From a virus, in the IMG/VR virus record IMGVR_UViG_3300047361_000330, positions 1 to 20,424 of that record: 20,424 bases of DNA; one strand, 5' to 3'. This document shows, piece by piece, positions 743 through 8,522 of this stretch. Each line of letters starts with the position of its first letter. Position 1 is the stretch's first letter. The translations under genes were made by a program, and so were the position numbers. The notes beneath the pieces are model-generated. The model searched no databases. It was not told the origin of the DNA and was given only the letters and a program-made list of their open reading frames with translations.

Positions 743-1034
743 TTACGTCACGTTTAACGAGATCATCAAGCCAATAGCAGGGAAGTATGTTGAAGTACTT
801 GATGAAGTTCGGACTAACAATCAAGAGCTGAAGGATGCGTTGTTTACGTTAGGCGAAGCTAACAAAGCAAACATCACGAGGATTGTGTCAGACCTTGACG
901 AGATGGATGCAAGCATCCAACAAATAAACAGGACGTTGACAGAGCTGACGCTCATAGCGAGACGAGTATCAAATGAGGGTAAAGCGTCATCGTCTTACGA
1001 AACGTCAGGGGAAGATAGCGGAAGCGGCTATTGA
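630..1034 (+). CDS. One-pass membrane protein with coiled coil, spanin- or holin-like
   Basis: A 134-residue protein starting inside the preceding lipoprotein gene. The start is supported by GGAGG nine bases upstream. After a polar N-terminus there is one hydrophobic segment at about residues 28-43. A long charged, heptad-like helix runs through about 52-115, and the tail is rich in Ser and Gly. This topology (short cytoplasmic N-terminus, one membrane span, periplasmic coiled coil) is the one used by inner-membrane spanins and some small phage lysis proteins. The overlapping lipoprotein supports a spanin reading, but the order is the reverse of lambda Rz/Rz1, where the lipoprotein gene lies within or after the inner-membrane gene. 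A structural or anchoring role is equally possible. It overlaps the next gene by 62 bases. Confidence 0.65.
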   Translation: MSEQNESEKTPPVTADLSGLFKIGERFGIPLLLLVAVSYVTFNEIIKPIAGKYVEVLDEVRTNNQELKDALFTLGEANKANITRIVSDLDEMDASIQQINRTLTELTLIARRVSNEGKASSSYETSGEDSGSGY

Positions 1035-1506
1035 GATAATACCTGACGCGATACGAGGCTTCCAAAGAGCGTATCCGGGTATCAGTAGGAAACTGGCGAA
1101 TATAGATGCAGTGAGTGTGGCTCACCTTGCTGTAGTAGTAGCTTCACGCACATACGACCCGAAGAGGTCGCAGTTGACTACATACTTTAGTAGGGCGATA
1201 CACAATTCCTTGTTGAAGGAGCTGCAGAAAGAGAAAAGGTTAAGATACGGTAGCTCGGATAGAGTACCGATGGAACTCGCAGAGAAGGAGCGTGAGTCAG
1301 AGCACTGGAAGCATGAGCTTGCAGCGTCTTTGTCTACGCTCACTAAAGAGCAACGCCAGTTAGTGCGAGCAAGATACTTCGACCAGAAGACATTTGAAGA
1401 AATGGCCGAAGAGTTTGGTTGCGACAGGAGAACAGTCCGTCGCCGACTGTCAGATGTTATCAATCTTTTGGGGGAACTTTCGGATAGCCCTGAAGACGAT
1501 GCTTGA
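973..1506 (+). CDS. Phage RNA polymerase sigma-70 family sigma factor
   Basis: A 177-residue protein that would redirect host RNA polymerase to phage promoters. The N-terminal half resembles sigma region 2: around residues 60-90 a YDPKRSQLTTYFSRAI segment leads into a basic KELQKEKRLR stretch. The C-terminal part (about 120-168) resembles region 4: a 'LSTLTKEQRQLVRARYF' helix, then a helix-turn-helix with EEMAEEFGCDRRTVRRRLS. It is small, close to ECF or phage sigma factors, with a short linker. The start at 973 has only a weak purine-rich region upstream, suggesting coupling to the overlapping previous gene. Its 3' end overlaps the convergent recombinase gene by 47 bases. The three-copy element upstream of the minus-strand units is a candidate target, by inference only. 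Confidence 0.8.
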   Translation: MRVKRHRLTKRQGKIAEAAIEIIPDAIRGFQRAYPGISRKLANIDAVSVAHLAVVVASRTYDPKRSQLTTYFSRAIHNSLLKELQKEKRLRYGSSDRVPMELAEKERESEHWKHELAASLSTLTKEQRQLVRARYFDQKTFEEMAEEFGCDRRTVRRRLSDVINLLGELSDSPEDDA

Positions 1507-2155
1507 GAGCAACGCTTATTGTGTTACGATCCCAATGTGTTCCACGAGGTCGAATATACCCTTCGAGCCTAGCTTTAAGTGCGCTTTTTCGCAGGGTAAT
1601 TCCGTCCTCTTTCCACTGTGCTAGCATCTCAGTTTGTCTTCTGTCCTCCATGCAAGGAACAAAGTCATTTCCTTTACGCTTCCATCCTGTTGGAACGAAT
1701 CGGTTGTAGACCTTGCCTTTGCTACGAAGTACGCCGAGTGCATCTTTGGTACGTTCTTGTATGACCATCTTCTCACCGACAGCACCGCCTAGCTGTGAAT
1801 AGCAGAAGGACATACCGAACGGTGTAGAAGTATCAAGTCCGGGCATGTTAGCAAAAGAGAACTTAATGCCTCGTGTCACTAACTCGTCCATAACCCTTGC
1901 ACCATCAGGGCCATTCCTAAATAGTCTGTCTAATCTTTGGAATACAATGTGGTCAGAGGGTTTCAGGCGCAAATAAAGCTGACGGCCACTGGGTCGTTCG
2001 AACAACTCAGTGCCGCCAGTAGTTGCATGATCATAAAAGAACTCATCTAGCTTCTTGCCTATTCTTTCTGCATAAGACAAGCAAGCGTCATGCTGAACAG
2101 TTTTAGTAAGTTGTTGGTCTTGTGTTGAAGCACGACCATATCCGTAAATCACCAT
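1460..2155 (-). CDS. Serine recombinase (resolvase/invertase family)
   Basis: A 231-residue site-specific recombinase. The N-terminal resolvase domain starts with YGYGRAS, giving the catalytic Ser at residue 10 and the usual Arg at 8. The active-site helix motif is DHIVFQRLDRLFRN (Asp76, Arg77, Arg80). A long helix follows at about 113-140, as in resolvases. The C-terminal part (about 150-225) has GW.RKG and an 'RGTHWDRNTISVAL' segment like the DNA-binding recombinase domain. The protein lacks the zinc ribbon and long coiled coil of large serine integrases, so inversion, resolution or a reduced integrase are all possible. The start is supported by AAAGGA upstream. Nested inverted repeats lie just upstream at 2181-2270 and could be its binding site. 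Confidence 0.88.
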   Translation of the reverse strand: MVIYGYGRASTQDQQLTKTVQHDACLSYAERIGKKLDEFFYDHATTGGTELFERPSGRQLYLRLKPSDHIVFQRLDRLFRNGPDGARVMDELVTRGIKFSFANMPGLDTSTPFGMSFCYSQLGGAVGEKMVIQERTKDALGVLRSKGKVYNRFVPTGWKRKGNDFVPCMEDRRQTEMLAQWKEDGITLRKSALKARLEGYIRPRGTHWDRNTISVALKHRLQGYPKVPPKD

Positions 2156-2620: not shown

Positions 2621-3523
2621 CTATCCTTTCCCGTTGTAGTGCTTGGCTAGACATGCAATCATTTCTGGGTCTTCGAACCACATGTCCTCGATTAACTCAC
2701 GACACACACCCATATCTTCGAGCACTTGACAGCCAGCGGCATCGTCTTCGTGCATGGTGTTGCCACGATACTCAGCCTCTGATGAGTGAGGCTTGTCAAC
2801 TGGGTAAGCCTCGTCAGCATCGAGCAGGAACTGGTCGTCATCATACGACCACTGACTCTTGCCACTGTACTCGGACACCGAACCACGGTGGCTGTTGTAC
2901 CAAGGATTCTTACCTGCAGAACTGACAGTACTACTGGTGTTGAAGCCAGCATTCCATGAAGCAGGCCACGCCTTGGGTTCTTCATAGGTCTTGTTGGAAT
3001 ACCAATGACCATTCTTAACCTCGTAGCCTGCTTCCTTATTCCACCACGCGAAGTCACCGTCAGCATGCAGGAACGCACACTTGTTGTAGTCTATGTACTG
3101 TTCTGCAATGAACTGACAACCTGCATTCCAAGGGAACAGTGGGCTGTCGTGATACATAGGACGGAGAACTTGCTTGACGAAGTGCCAAGTATCTGACTTG
3201 TCCTTCATCTCGTTGCACTCAATATCTAGCTGACCGTTGTGGATCATAGCTAGATCAGAGCCAACACGGAATGGGTGACAGTTACGCTTCTCGATAACGC
3301 CGTGTGTCTTGATGCGGAAATGCACAAGAGCTGGGCGATCACGGAAAGGTTTGAACTGCTTCCAGAAGTCTTTGAAGCTAGTCGTATTCTTGCGAATGAT
3401 GACTGACTTCTTGTGACGGTCAGGGACTGCAAAGCCCCAGCCGTCTGGGTTACGGTCGTAACCGTTCTGATAAGCCTTGTAGTCTGGCTTGACGCCAGCG
3501 GGCTTAGTAATTGCGATACACAT
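2621..3523 (-). CDS. Class II glutamine amidotransferase
   Basis: A 300-residue Ntn-hydrolase-type amidotransferase, expected to hydrolyse glutamine to glutamate and ammonia. The protein begins MCIAI, so Cys2 becomes the N-terminal nucleophile once Met is removed. Other family motifs are NPDGWGFA (25-32), HFRIKTHG (68-75), CHPF (82-85), IHNGQL (94-99) and SDTWHFVKQVL (110-120). Beyond about residue 190 the sequence is Ser/Asp/Glu-rich and not clearly conserved. No synthase domain is fused, so the ammonia acceptor must be another protein. The amidoligase gene ends eight bases upstream in the same unit, making it the natural partner. Alternatively the fold may act as an amidohydrolase or peptidase on gamma-glutamyl compounds. 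Confidence 0.88.
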   Translation of the reverse strand: MCIAITKPAGVKPDYKAYQNGYDRNPDGWGFAVPDRHKKSVIIRKNTTSFKDFWKQFKPFRDRPALVHFRIKTHGVIEKRNCHPFRVGSDLAMIHNGQLDIECNEMKDKSDTWHFVKQVLRPMYHDSPLFPWNAGCQFIAEQYIDYNKCAFLHADGDFAWWNKEAGYEVKNGHWYSNKTYEEPKAWPASWNAGFNTSSTVSSAGKNPWYNSHRGSVSEYSGKSQWSYDDDQFLLDADEAYPVDKPHSSEAEYRGNTMHEDDAAGCQVLEDMGVCRELIEDMWFEDPEMIACLAKHYNGKG

Positions 3524-3531
3524 AGAGCGAC

Positions 3532-4902
3532 CTACTTTCGCTTAGAGTTACGTTGCGACTCACGCTTGTGAGCTGCAAACATCTTGACCATACCCGCCAG
3601 TTCCGACTGACGAGCGAAGTTACCATGGGCGTAAGGGAACTGACGTCTATTGAAGACAGAGTGTCTGACAATAGGGCCAAGACCAGTACGCTCAATGTTG
3701 CTGTATGGGACATACTGGAAGTAGTCGCATAACAGCTGAGCCATCTGCATGTTGCCAAGGATACGCATGGGATTGGTAGACGACCTGAACAGTCGCATCT
3801 CCCAACCGTGCCATGATCTCCGTGACATAGCGTCGTGCTTTCGGCACTGTGCTTGCGGATGCTTGCTATACACATTCATCTGCTGCACGTAGTTGATATG
3901 ACAAGTATCAAGATACCTGTCAGTATCATCGCACCACACTTGCTGGTCGTGATGTGACCGGCAGTAGTGGTGTGGGTGACGACCGCCAATGAACTTCATG
4001 TCATTGGGGTGTGACTTGACGATGTACAAGAACACCTTGTAAAGCGTAGCTTGAGTCGTCATGGTGTCAGACACATTAACGTGCATGCCACATGAGTCAT
4101 TCGACCACGCCTTAGCATTGCGTTGCCACCTGTGATCCATTCCGCCATCAAAGTATTGTTGACGAAACAGTTTGAACTGTTTGAACGGCGGGAGTGACTT
4201 GAAGTACTCCATGTGTTCAATCCAGTAATCACGACTCCACCCTTGGGCCAGCATCATGTAACCATAGTGGCACATCTGATGGTCAGCGAATGTCAATGGT
4301 GGAGTCTTGGACTCTGCGGGCGACGAGCCCTCCAGAGACGCATCATTGCAGGCTACTGAGTAGCCACTGATACGAGAGTCAAGCAAGCCATGGCAAGACA
4401 AACGATCAGCCACATGGCTGTTCATCGTGTGGTCGTTATCATGGCTATGGCTACTCTTCTCGATCTCGATACCGAAGCGTTGCAGATGCAGAGCCTTGAT
4501 GGGCTTGCACCTACGCCACCTGAGGGCATCGAAGTCATCCGTGATTGCACTGAACCCTAGCACACGCAGCGGGTCAGTACTGTAACAGCGATTGCCGTTC
4601 TCCTCTTCCTCGCTACAGCAGCAGCAATCATGACACTCACCGCAATCATGGCAGCAGTTGTCAAGATGGTCTCCGCCGCAGTAGACAATAGTGTTGCAAC
4701 TAGGGCATTCTTCGCAGTCACAACAGCTCTCACACACATCGCAATGTCCGTGCATGCAACCGTTGCCGTCTTCGAATCGCTCATCGCAACTCTCGCAATA
4801 GGAGCAACAGCAATCATCTTCAGGCTGCTCACAAGTAGAGCAGCACTCTACCTCTTCGTCGGCATCGTTATCCGTAACGAATGCACCGTCGTTTGGTGGC
4901 AT
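3532..4902 (-). CDS. Amidoligase with cysteine-rich N-terminal region
   Basis: A 456-residue protein with two parts. Residues 20-106 hold 26 cysteines, many as CxxC or CC, with His and acidic residues, like several packed metal-binding knuckles. Residues 140-400 fit the glutamine-synthetase-fold COOH-NH2 ligase (putative amidoligase) family: FGIEIE at 143-148, an 'NDASLEGSSPAESKTPPL' segment at 186-203, CGMHVNV at 271-277 and WEMRLFRSSTNP at 367-378. The acidic and His residues in these motifs are those expected to bind ATP and metal. Such enzymes are predicted to join a carboxylate to an amine using ATP; the substrate is unknown. The start has AGAGG upstream and lies 38 bases from the promoter-like element at 4940-4974. 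It heads a unit with the class II amidotransferase. The basic C-terminal tail may bind nucleic acid. Confidence 0.83.
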   Translation of the reverse strand: MPPNDGAFVTDNDADEEVECCSTCEQPEDDCCCSYCESCDERFEDGNGCMHGHCDVCESCCDCEECPSCNTIVYCGGDHLDNCCHDCGECHDCCCCSEEEENGNRCYSTDPLRVLGFSAITDDFDALRWRRCKPIKALHLQRFGIEIEKSSHSHDNDHTMNSHVADRLSCHGLLDSRISGYSVACNDASLEGSSPAESKTPPLTFADHQMCHYGYMMLAQGWSRDYWIEHMEYFKSLPPFKQFKLFRQQYFDGGMDHRWQRNAKAWSNDSCGMHVNVSDTMTTQATLYKVFLYIVKSHPNDMKFIGGRHPHHYCRSHHDQQVWCDDTDRYLDTCHINYVQQMNVYSKHPQAQCRKHDAMSRRSWHGWEMRLFRSSTNPMRILGNMQMAQLLCDYFQYVPYSNIERTGLGPIVRHSVFNRRQFPYAHGNFARQSELAGMVKMFAAHKRESQRNSKRK

Positions 4903-4939
4903 ATCCGTAACCTCTTTCTATTGGGGTAGTAAACCTATC

Positions 4940-4974
4940 TACTATATAGAGATGTGCCTAATAAATAGGGGTTT
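4940..4974 (-). promoter_or_regulatory. Conserved 35-base promoter-like element, copy A
   Basis: Read on the minus strand, this is AAACCCCTAT, then 12 bases, then TCTCTATATAGTA. It lies 38 bases before the amidoligase start and overlaps the stop codon of the upstream gene (4958-5179). The spacing from CCCCTAT to TATATAG is 16 bases, close to sigma-70-type -35/-10 geometry. Copies B and C have the same blocks at the same spacing. Confidence 0.7.
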
Positions 4975-5179
4975 CACAGCGATCCTGAATAACCTTCATC
5001 CTTTCTCTTAGTGCGTGGATTCTTCTTAGGTCTGTCAGGTACTCTTGCTCTGACAGTATTGGAGGATCAAAGCGATGGTTGATCCTGTCTTGCATTAGGC
5101 ATCCAAGGCCATTGATAAGCAGGTCAAGCTGCACTGCATCAACGGTGATCTCGGTTTGGCCTATGAAACTAACTGACAT
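4958..5179 (-). CDS. Small hypothetical protein (73 aa)
   Basis: A 73-residue protein that I do not recognise. Its ATG follows the TAG of the upstream gene with no gap, so it is probably translated by coupling. The second half (about 44-68) is a charged helix with regular Leu/Ile spacing, and the first half contains a short hydrophobic helix. There is no signal peptide or cysteine motif. Its last codons and stop coincide with promoter element copy A, so the end of this gene and the start of the amidoligase unit share DNA. Confidence 0.6.
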   Translation of the reverse strand: MSVSFIGQTEITVDAVQLDLLINGLGCLMQDRINHRFDPPILSEQEYLTDLRRIHALRERMKVIQDRCETPIY

Positions 5180-5512
5180 CTAGTCCTCGCTTTCCATTGG
5201 CTCTACGGGTATCCAATCCTCACCCTCTTCGGTCTCGTAATGGTCGAAGTTGTATCGAACATCAGAGAACATGATGACGCTTGTCTCATCCAGTATGTAT
5301 ACTGAGTAAGCAGCAGAGTCTTCATGCTTGCATGCGTAGTGTGTGGCAGGGCCAGCACAGCACTCACACAACACACGAGTGATGGGAAACCTATGTCCAT
5401 CCTCTGGGCCTCCAACGCAGACGCCCATACGTTCGCCGGGAACCATATCATCAGGTACATAACCTTCTGGTTCCCAATCATTTTCTGCTTCGTTGAACTC
5501 TTCCGGTATCAC
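5180..5512 (-). CDS. Acidic hypothetical protein with a GGPEDG motif
   Basis: A 110-residue acidic protein starting with GTG, supported by AAAGGA seven bases before it. It contains VCVGGPEDGHRFPI near residues 32-45, four cysteines in CECC and nearby positions (about 49-61), and a YSVYILDE strand-like segment. Short proteins with a GGPxDG turn followed by beta strands are common in phages and remain uncharacterised. It overlaps the upstream gene by 35 bases and touches the downstream gene, so all three are likely co-translated. The function is unknown; the spaced cysteines could bind a metal ion. Confidence 0.65.
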   Translation of the reverse strand: MIPEEFNEAENDWEPEGYVPDDMVPGERMGVCVGGPEDGHRFPITRVLCECCAGPATHYACKHEDSAAYSVYILDETSVIMFSDVRYNFDHYETEEGEDWIPVEPMESED

Positions 5513-5711
5513 GATTGATTCCTTTCATAAGTAGTTTAATGAACGTATCGCAACGATTGCGTACATCCCGATTATCCGAAACATCCTCAAGCTGTCTCAT
5601 CCAAGTCATGAGTTCTTGCTTGAGTACAACCATATTGAATCGTGTGCCAGCAACCTGTTCAGCACTGTGATCCATACGATCTTTTTCCTCATCTGTCATC
5701 AGTCGATCCAT
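5478..5711 (-). CDS. Small helical hypothetical protein (77 aa)
   Basis: A 77-residue charged protein, largely predicted helical, with Glu/Lys/Met-rich segments and a basic C-terminus. It is unrecognised. GAGGAGGT lies upstream of the ATG. The final 35 bases overlap the GTG-started gene downstream, and the Shine-Dalgarno of that gene is inside this one, a standard arrangement for translational coupling. No cysteine motif, membrane segment or catalytic pattern is visible. Confidence 0.6.
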   Translation of the reverse strand: MDRLMTDEEKDRMDHSAEQVAGTRFNMVVLKQELMTWMRQLEDVSDNRDVRNRCDTFIKLLMKGINRDTGRVQRSRK

Positions 5712-5732
5712 TAGATACCTCCTCGGTAAGAG

Positions 5733-6194
5733 TCAACTAGGGCTACCAATGTCGTAATCAGCAGCAGTCCCAAAGGCACGGTTATGTGCGTCATTCCGGT
5801 ATTCCTCTCGTTCTGGGGTAATATTCATTCGATACACGTAACAATCAATCTCTGGCTCATTGAGGCCCAGCCACGTATAGCCGAACAACTCACGAGCCCA
5901 TCGCTTGGCGTACCAGCCATGCCGTACGCCTTCAACAAAGTCAACGTGCTTCTCAGCCTCAGGGCTTAGAGCAACAACGTCAACAAACAACACCTCGCCA
6001 TCTTTCGGCTCGATAGTGGCAGCACCATAGTCATGATGCTTTTCCCAGTTATCAATCCGCACATCCGCATAGACTACTTTGTAATCTCTATTGATATTGC
6101 CTCTGTTGTTACGAAGCTGCATCTCACGAACATAAGGCTCTTTGAAGATGCCGTAGAAGGCAAAGAGATTCCAATCTTTGGGGTAACTATCCAT
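5733..6194 (-). CDS. Gamma-glutamylcyclotransferase-like (AIG2/GGCT fold) protein
   Basis: A 153-residue protein whose pattern fits the GGCT/AIG2-like fold. An N-terminal strand and glycine turn, NLFAFYGIF (9-17), corresponds to the family's YGTL-type loop. An 'AATIEPKDGEVLFVDVVAL' region follows at 58-76, then an acidic 'HVDFVEGV' helix start (83-90) whose Glu88 sits where the catalytic Glu is expected. A Tyr-containing strand (HGWYAKRW) and a final strand DCYVYRM complete the pattern. Family members release 5-oxoproline from gamma-glutamyl amines or peptides. The loop differs from the consensus, so activity is uncertain. The gene starts directly after the stop of a 20-codon reading frame. 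A cyclotransferase near an amidoligase and an amidotransferase suggests gamma-glutamyl chemistry. Confidence 0.65.
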   Translation of the reverse strand: MDSYPKDWNLFAFYGIFKEPYVREMQLRNNRGNINRDYKVVYADVRIDNWEKHHDYGAATIEPKDGEVLFVDVVALSPEAEKHVDFVEGVRHGWYAKRWARELFGYTWLGLNEPEIDCYVYRMNITPEREEYRNDAHNRAFGTAADYDIGSPS

Positions 6195-6257
6195 TCATTC
6201 TCCTCCCAGTAATAGGTAAACAACTCGAACAATCATCCAGATAACTTCCCAGTTCAT
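6195..6257 (-). CDS. Predicted 20-residue hydrophobic peptide
   Basis: A very short reading frame (MNWEVIWMIVRVVYLLLGGE) with an excellent ribosome site, GGAGGAAAAT, before the ATG. Its TGA abuts the ATG of the cyclotransferase-like gene, and its last codons (CTGGGAGGAGAA) supply the Shine-Dalgarno of that gene. Residues 3-18 are hydrophobic enough for a small membrane helix. It may be a leader that couples translation, or a real membrane micropeptide. The evidence is ribosome site and spacing only. Confidence 0.45.
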   Translation of the reverse strand: MNWEVIWMIVRVVYLLLGGE

Positions 6258-6347: not shown

Positions 6348-6380
6348 AAGATTCTCCGTAGGGTTAGAGTATACCGGCTA

Positions 6381-6415
6381 TACTATATAGAGATACCCCT
6401 AGAATATAGGGGTTA
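6381..6415 (-). promoter_or_regulatory. Conserved 35-base promoter-like element, copy B
   Basis: On the minus strand: TAACCCCTAT, 12 bases, then TCTCTATATAGTA. It lies directly after the HNH nuclease gene and before the unit holding the cyclotransferase-like gene. Here the first block forms a perfect inverted repeat (ACCCCTA, five bases, TAGGGGT), which copies A and C only partly keep. A further inverted pair, AGTATA and TATACT, spans 6369-6385. It could also act as a hairpin for the upstream gene's end, but it lacks a T tract. Confidence 0.7.
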
Positions 6416-8431: not shown

Positions 8432-8487
8432 AGTAGATACTCCTCGATAGGGTAATAGAGATAGAGCAACTAGAGTAGTTACTCTTA

Positions 8488-8522
8488 TACTTACTAGAGA
8501 AGTCCCCAGAATATAGGGGTTT
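8488..8522 (-). promoter_or_regulatory. Conserved 35-base promoter-like element, copy C
   Basis: On the minus strand: AAACCCCTAT, 12 bases, then TCTCTAGTAAGTA, 57 bases before the 143-residue membrane gene. The first block matches copies A and B almost exactly. The second differs in the middle (AGTAAGTA instead of TATAGTA-type), so it may be a weaker promoter. It is the most upstream of the three, at the start of the minus-strand block. Confidence 0.65.

Follow-up and report, generated by a model that had tools for sequence, protein, structure and literature searches.

Organization of the locus

We analyzed a 20,424-nt stretch of viral DNA (IMG/VR record IMGVR_UViG_3300047361_000330, positions 1 to 20,424), referred to below as the window. 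Three open reading frames on its minus strand are predicted to encode a class II (Ntn) glutamine amidotransferase (GATase) of 300 aa (2621-3523), an Amidoligase_2-type (glutamine-synthetase-like) ligase of 456 aa (3532-4902) and a probable gamma-glutamyl cyclotransferase (GGCT/AIG2-like protein) of 153 aa (5733-6194). The coordinates agree with a preliminary description of this DNA, which had placed the three frames on one strand and the first two eight bases apart; the gap between amidoligase and GATase is 8 nt (bases 3524-3531). Some 0.8 kb further upstream, beyond three small genes, a second and distinct unit holds the GGCT-like gene.

Both units are preceded by a 36-nt repeat, present in the window in three minus-strand copies of at least 81% identity. 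The first copy (4938-4973), which contains a CCTA-N5-TAGG inverted repeat, precedes the start of the amidoligase by 35 nt; the second (6379-6414) precedes the GGCT-like gene by 184 nt, and the third (8486-8521) is located upstream of the first leftward unit. A related element sits upstream of the GGCT gene in two relatives, L195 and L206. The shared element that had been noticed ahead of both units is real and is promoter- or leader-like in character. A scan with the sigma-70 consensus showed no excess of promoters, and a search of 12 relatives for a T7-like RNA polymerase that might read the repeat found none, with a control set equally devoid of any match.

Directly ahead of the GGCT-like gene, a 20-aa micropeptide, MNWEVIWMIVRVVYLLLGGE, is encoded at 6195-6257 on the minus strand, 121 nt downstream of the second repeat copy, and its stop codon abuts the GGCT-like start. 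The micropeptide gene directly precedes the GGCT gene in L195 and L206 as well (three of three records including the window), and all 20 residues are identical in the three, the genes showing six synonymous and zero amino-acid-changing differences. Downstream of the GGCT-like gene, a minus-strand frame at 5180-5512 encodes a small protein with a GGPEDG motif, for which phmmer gave no significant match; by eye, the GGCT of L195 and L206 is likewise followed immediately by a protein whose GGP-DG motif resembles it. Separately, a host search by way of the capsid protein returned one short contig from an Ignavibacteriales lake-sediment MAG, a match too weak to name a host.

The amidoligase and the class II amidotransferase

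The product predicted from 3532-4902 was assigned by profile as an amidoligase, and we regard this assignment as secure. Library scans gave no direct Pfam or NCBIfam match, PF12224 included, and the amidoligases of the relatives L206, L195 and L199, which score clearly by profile, likewise have no Pfam match. A profile from whose building the window protein had been left out found it at E=1.5e-12, and BLASTP matched it at 3e-6 to the annotated, PF12224-positive amidoligase of phage ctgrD200. Ten core residues that are invariant in an alignment of 15 amidoligases including this one (E148, D187, S189, E197, P202, G272, H274, R308, E368 and R370) are all kept in the window protein, which displays the motifs FGIEIE, NDASL..E..TPP, CGMHVNVS and EMRLF. 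The independent profile and the core residues support the amidoligase that had been proposed from the letters alone. No match was obtained by tblastn of the amidoligase against phage records, and scanning viral contigs for peptide patterns of one protein at a time also returned nothing. The N-terminal region is rich in cysteine (27 Cys within the first 150 residues); it presumably binds zinc, and its composition suggests macromolecule binding. A degenerate second amidoligase is carried by relatives, L206 among them.

The product of 2621-3523 is, from its sequence, assigned with certainty to the class II GATases. It matched Pfam GATase_4 (PF13230) with 28 bits (cutoff 23; E=1.3e-6) and, in tblastn, the GATase of OM43 phage MEP402 at 3e-28, and a homologue with 43% identity is present in one relative. 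The protein begins Met-Cys, with the catalytic Cys2 following Met1, as do those of all relatives, and H68, R70, T73, G75, N96, G97 and D111, which belong to the glutamine-binding and oxyanion motifs HFR, THG, NG and SD, are invariant in an alignment of eight proteins. The C-terminal ~100 residues have no assigned role. Pfam, phage relatives and catalytic residues accordingly agree with the earlier call of a class II amidotransferase with an intact N-terminal Cys.

A probable gamma-glutamyl cyclotransferase

The product of 5733-6194 is very probably a GGCT/AIG2-like gamma-glutamyl cyclotransferase, a call in which synteny counts for more than score. Like the GGCT/AIG2-like family (PF06094 GGACT), it carries YG-x-F/L near its N-terminus (FYGIF) and a Glu in an EG motif (E88 in DFVEGVRHGWY, the putative catalytic Glu), but it passes no library model, having no match in Pfam, NCBIfam or PHROG. 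Y14-G15 and D85-x-x-E88-G89 are kept in the window protein and in L193, L195 and L206. The L193 homologue is 39% identical with its motifs kept, and a search of viral contigs and bacterial genomes for further homologues of this pair found none beyond the L193 contig; tblastn of the window protein against phage records gave no match. The proteins at the equivalent place in L195 and L206 pass the PF06094 cutoff, and the GGCT call is probable because the position of the window gene matches that of these Pfam-certified GGCTs of two close relatives, with the identical micropeptide ahead and the Glu kept.

The missing library matches would also be expected if the 153-aa protein were no cyclotransferase but a small protein of another alpha/beta type in which the EGV motif occurs by chance, a reading that we consider improbable. 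A profile of 20 viral GGCTs found the protein at E=5e-8, but these 20 had been picked by the very motif found in the window protein and the signal fell to chance level once that motif was masked, and we therefore did not take the score at face value. A terminase profile carrying the identical selecting motif does not detect the protein, which speaks against a chance motif, as do the persistence of the motifs in the L193 homologue and the place of the gene behind the micropeptide. AIG2-type GGCTs of other phages that had not been chosen by motif failed to detect it. Structure prediction points both ways: a single-sequence AlphaFold model (pLDDT 42) had no meaningful fold match, and a two-sequence model reached pLDDT 41, for which VIA-align, at this low confidence, gave Z 3.9, tied with unrelated folds, but for which the top five Foldseek matches were all gamma-glutamyl cyclotransferase chains, human GGCT first (E 0.018-0.074). 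The family placement offered in the preliminary description is thus made probable by synteny and by the retained E88, the Glu that it had pointed out, with no library match behind it and with sequence and fold scores that do not decide on their own. Loss of catalytic residues, which that description had considered, was not observed; they are kept in the alignments of all three proteins.

Linkage of the genes across phages

The amidoligase lies directly upstream of the GATase in 15 of 15 GATase-carrying records of the window's uncultured phage group, which argues that their linkage is more than chance. More widely, an amidoligase is present at 83 of 88 GATase-bearing phage loci, and it lies within 100 nt of the GATase in 72 of 80 other GATase-bearing viral contigs. 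The core pair occurs together in every group member with a visible GATase, including those without a recognisable GGCT. For assays, this minimal pair is therefore the unit of choice, a simple system of one ligase and one ammonia source.

For the GGCT, the co-occurrence that had been anticipated in related phages was partial, with a GGCT recognised in only 4 of 16 group records (window counted). The 12 records without one are compatible with a GGCT-like gene that stands outside the system, for instance an independent gene of gamma-glutamyl (e.g. glutathione) metabolism or counter-defence that is nearby by chance. Its separate unit, with the 0.8 kb and three small genes that intervene, and the ~3 kb and other genes that separate the GGCT from the amidoligase in L195 and L206, fit such independence as well. 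In other phages, however, the GGCT adjoins the GATase (L014, L019, L021, L046 and L084) or is fused to it (phage C75C1), and amidoligases were found on 10 of 34 contigs with motif-picked GGCTs, compared with 0 of 31 terminase-motif contigs in the same scan (Fisher p=0.001). Since the amidoligase and GGCT units of the window also carry the same repeat element, we regard independence as possible but rather doubtful.

Comparison with described cassettes

Clusters of amidoligase, GATase and GGCT recur among very different phages. Iyer et al. (2009) are said to have predicted a peptidoglycan-modification cassette of this kind. The gene set of the window is a divergent new example of a set already described in many phages, and the caution that its linkage might not be new has proved justified. 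A "peptidoglycan modification cassette" has been published for RIO-1-like podoviruses, phiEco32, PaP3/LUZ24/tf and UFV-P2 (PMC5498523, PMC3890496). Cassettes of the RIO-1/phiEco32 type resemble the window in that a single cluster of the early region holds an amidoligase, a GATase of class II and a GGCT, the last a probable one in the window. They additionally encode an ATP-grasp enzyme and a further ligase, which in UFV-P2 is PF14395, and the window amidoligase differs from theirs in its heavily Cys-rich N-terminus. PF14395 (COOH-NH2_lig) was not detected in 22 relatives or among the ten early-region proteins scanned in the window, which is a fragment, and no ATP-grasp enzyme was found among those ten proteins. 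Because the PF14395 ligase was not found in the 22 relatives, the peptidoglycan reading cannot simply be transferred.

The amidoligase-GATase pair has also been published for OM43 phages MEP401 and MEP402 and mycobacteriophage Marvin (PMC10580990). MEP402 and ctgrD200 resemble the window in having a two-gene module of the same order and near-zero spacing, and no GGCT was recognised in the regions of these two that were examined. MEP401/MEP402, ctgrD200 and Marvin belong to phage lineages unrelated to that of the window, and their GATases are ~30-38% identical to the window protein, compared with only ~17-24% for the amidoligases.

Proposed function and target

Family membership, adjacency and conservation make it likely that these phage genes constitute a module for glutamine-dependent amide formation that belongs to the known amidoligase-GATase(-GGCT) type. 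Judging from the intact residues, the N-terminal Cys of the GATase would hydrolyze glutamine to release ammonia, and by the chemistry of its family the amidoligase would use ATP to activate a carboxylate as an acyl phosphate and convert it to an amide with ammonia or another amine, its Cys-rich N-terminal region probably recruiting the target. The GGCT-like enzyme of the neighboring unit might cleave off gamma-glutamyl groups in the form of 5-oxoproline and in this way trim the product or undo gamma-glutamyl amides of the host. The target would be modified early in infection, for example for the exclusion of competing phages.

In the literature consulted, neither activities nor substrates were reported for phage members of these families. 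The most likely targets are a peptide of the host envelope (the peptidoglycan stem), which we tentatively favor, and a host or phage protein, which seems somewhat less likely. The known activity of GGCT enzymes on small gamma-glutamyl amines would fit an alternative in which the pair serves secondary metabolism and produces an amidated amino acid or some small diffusible metabolite, shielding the phage or poisoning competitors with no macromolecule modified. An intracellular product would require no transporter or carrier protein, and the OM43 phage paper (PMC10580990) relates that such a role has been suggested for Marvin. Set against this are the Cys-rich N-terminal region, with its suggestion of macromolecule binding, and the ten early-region proteins scanned, among which there was no other biosynthetic enzyme; a small metabolite as the target is, in our estimate, rather unlikely, on a par with a protein. 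For the amide-forming module, identification of the target would turn a long-standing prediction, that of a cell-surface change excluding rival phages, into a testable fact.

A more elaborate version appears quite improbable to us, namely a distinct macromolecule-amidating writer/eraser machine of this uncultured phage group that would mark a host protein, or a peptide of the envelope, with an amide. It would consist of a zinc-finger amidoligase (with the degenerate paralogue of the relatives as a regulatory or targeting subunit), a dedicated GATase and a GGCT eraser made together with the invariant 20-aa, probably membrane, micropeptide.

Organization of the locus

The window is a linear virus record of 20,424 bases, and its plus strand carries the major head protein, terminase and portal genes. 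An ORF check placed genes for a class II glutamine amidotransferase (GATase; 2621-3523), an amidoligase (3532-4902) and a protein resembling gamma-glutamyl cyclotransferase (GGCT; 5733-6194) on the minus strand within 3.6 kb, with a gap of 8 nt between the first two, in agreement with the preliminary description. The promoter-like element that had been proposed to precede both units was confirmed as a 36-nt repeat present in three copies (4938-4973, 6379-6414 and 8486-8521), each preceding a leftward unit. Inside the element lies a short inverted repeat, the arms of which vary by copy (CCCCTA/TAGGGG, CCTA/TAGG, and CCTAT/ATAGG in L206, a relative from the same uncultured phage group), and this is followed by a TCTATATAG-like sequence. 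The element could be a promoter for a phage sigma factor, a site for a phage-type RNA polymerase or a leader hairpin. A candidate for its reader is a sigma-70-like factor with regions 2 and 4 (973-1506, plus strand), which was kept in 12 of 12 relatives searched at 41-67% identity.

The amidoligase and GATase form a stable two-gene module

The GATase scored above the Pfam cutoff for GATase_4 (1.3e-6), and Cys2, R70, N96-G97 and D111 were invariant in eight aligned proteins; the match and the invariant Cys2 bear out the proposal of a class II amidotransferase with an intact N-terminal Cys. Its best phage matches were OM43 phages MEP402 and MEP401 (3e-28), the uncultured phage ctgrD200 and Marvin-like mycobacteriophages. 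This family call leaves no room for doubt.

The amidoligase gave no match to any library model scanned. It aligned with the annotated amidoligase of ctgrD200 (BLASTP, 3e-6), which passes PF12224 and is encoded 5 nt before a GATase. A profile that excluded the window, built from motif-bearing amidoligases of annotated phages and of GATase-selected contigs, detected the window protein at 1.5e-12. An alignment of 15 amidoligases has ten invariant residues, and the window protein keeps every one of them, in the motifs FGIEIE, NDASL, CGMHVNVS and EMRLF. These two results uphold the earlier amidoligase assignment. Residues 1-150 hold 27 cysteines, compared with 14 in the closest relatives, L195 and L206, and these cysteines probably form zinc sites.

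Among 80 viral contigs gathered through GATase alone and 8 phage records, an amidoligase was present at 83 of 88 GATase loci, and 72 of the 80 contigs have it no more than 100 nt away on the GATase strand. We also reached the window's own phage group via its capsid protein, in records of up to 60-80 kb. GATase was found in 15 of the 40 longer records, many of the other 25 being fragments, so that this count is not evidence of absence. The amidoligase was directly upstream in 15/15 GATase-bearing records (gap ≤56 nt), the co-occurrence proposed as a check, so that in this group the pair constitutes a stable two-gene module.

Directly upstream of the first amidoligase gene, a second amidoligase-like gene is present on the minus strand of L195 (2925-4016), L206 (7853-8911) and a further relative, L193 (4144-5241), and is missing from the window. 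Its motifs are intact in L193 (GIEVE, CGLHVHVD, EIRLP) and lost from the homologues in L195 and L206, the latter reading IGVIY, YQFVFD and KLLD; the L206 and L193 proteins match at 3.4e-05. These sequences suggest that the L195 and L206 proteins may serve as a pseudoenzyme subunit or partner.

Synteny supports the GGCT-like assignment

The GGCT call is the weak point of the three-gene reading, and synteny is its strongest support. Library scans with the 153-residue protein gave no match. Its L193 homologue is 39% identical and keeps FAFYGIF and D--EGV--G-Y. A scan with this motif at the DNA level yielded 20 clear viral GGCTs, whose profile matched the window protein at 5e-8. Because the selection of these GGCTs relied on the motif that they share with the window protein, and masking it brought the score down to chance level, the score counts neither for nor against the call. 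A terminase profile bearing the same motif by accident did not find the window protein. The AlphaFold model was poor (pLDDT 41); its five best PDB matches were all human gamma-glutamyl cyclotransferase chains (E 0.018-0.074), and VIA-align gave a Z of 3.9, tied with other folds.

Upstream of the amidoligase-GATase pair, L195 and L206 each encode a protein that passes PF06094 (2.6e-6 and 4e-7, respectively). Directly before the GGCT-like gene in the window, L195 and L206, abutting or nearly abutting its start, is a 20-residue minus-strand frame, MNWEVIWMIVRVVYLLLGGE (6195-6257; L195:6526-6588; L206:11439-11501). It is identical at 20/20 residues, and L195 and L206 each differ from the window by six synonymous changes and no replacing one, whereas identity among the GGCT proteins is only some 21-27%. 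This frame probably encodes a genuine hydrophobic micropeptide that ORF cutoffs failed to pick up. A related repeat element also lies ahead of it in both relatives (L195:6645, with another at 5790; upstream of L206:11437). The Glu named in the earlier GGCT/AIG2-like claim is kept in 4/4 proteins compared (the window, L193, L195 and L206), and we consider the protein probably a GGCT.

Elsewhere, GGCT begins about 45 nt past GATase in five viral contigs, and in phage C75C1 one protein (L006:6001-6897, plus strand), annotated only as gamma-glutamyl cyclotransferase, matches both domains; this GATase-GGCT fusion is direct evidence for a link between the two activities. An amidoligase was present on 10/34 GGCT contigs versus 0/31 terminase-motif contigs (Fisher p=0.001), all found solely via the motif. 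The association of GGCT with amidoligase also holds more broadly.

Relation to known systems and possible target

The amidoligase-GATase(-GGCT) association is already published for other phages, as the preliminary description had suspected, and the window locus is mostly known in kind. UFV-P2 carries COOH-NH2 ligase, amidoligase, GATase, ATP-grasp and AIG2 genes (PMC3890496), and the amidoligase-GATase pair occurs in MEP401/402 and over 30 metagenomic genomes (PMC10580990). The latter paper traces the superinfection and secondary-metabolite ideas to Iyer et al. 2009 and to the paper on Marvin. Unlike the RIO-1-type peptidoglycan modification cassette, which includes a second ligase (PF14395), the locus showed no PF14395 ligase in 22 relatives; we therefore file it under amidoligase-GATase(-GGCT) rather than the full cassette.

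The data establish which families the pair belongs to, its intact residues, its adjacency and its conservation. From established family knowledge, the GATase would release ammonia from glutamine, the amidoligase would activate a carboxylate with ATP and then form an amide, and the GGCT-like enzyme would free gamma-glutamyl groups as 5-oxoproline. We tentatively favor an envelope peptide as the target, chiefly in view of published predictions and the Cys-rich region, though neither proves it; a protein and a metabolite seem somewhat less likely, and equally so. The locus widens the range of cases and contributes a minimal version of the gene set together with two side findings.

Other genes and a host hint

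Downstream of the GATase unit is a serine recombinase gene (1460-2155, minus strand); L193, L195 and L206 have homologues of it at the corresponding end of their units. The sole capsid protein match in a bacterial genome (L209:8922-10016, 56% identity) lies in an Ignavibacteriales MAG from lake sediment, on an 11.8 kb contig that may be viral sequence binned with it, and gives a weak hint of an Ignavibacteriales host. By eye, the plus-strand frame at 14-742 opens like a predicted lipoprotein (CLLAVIAGC) and continues with CxxCxGxG zinc-finger repeats of the DnaJ type (CPDCLGRG, CSRCNGTG).
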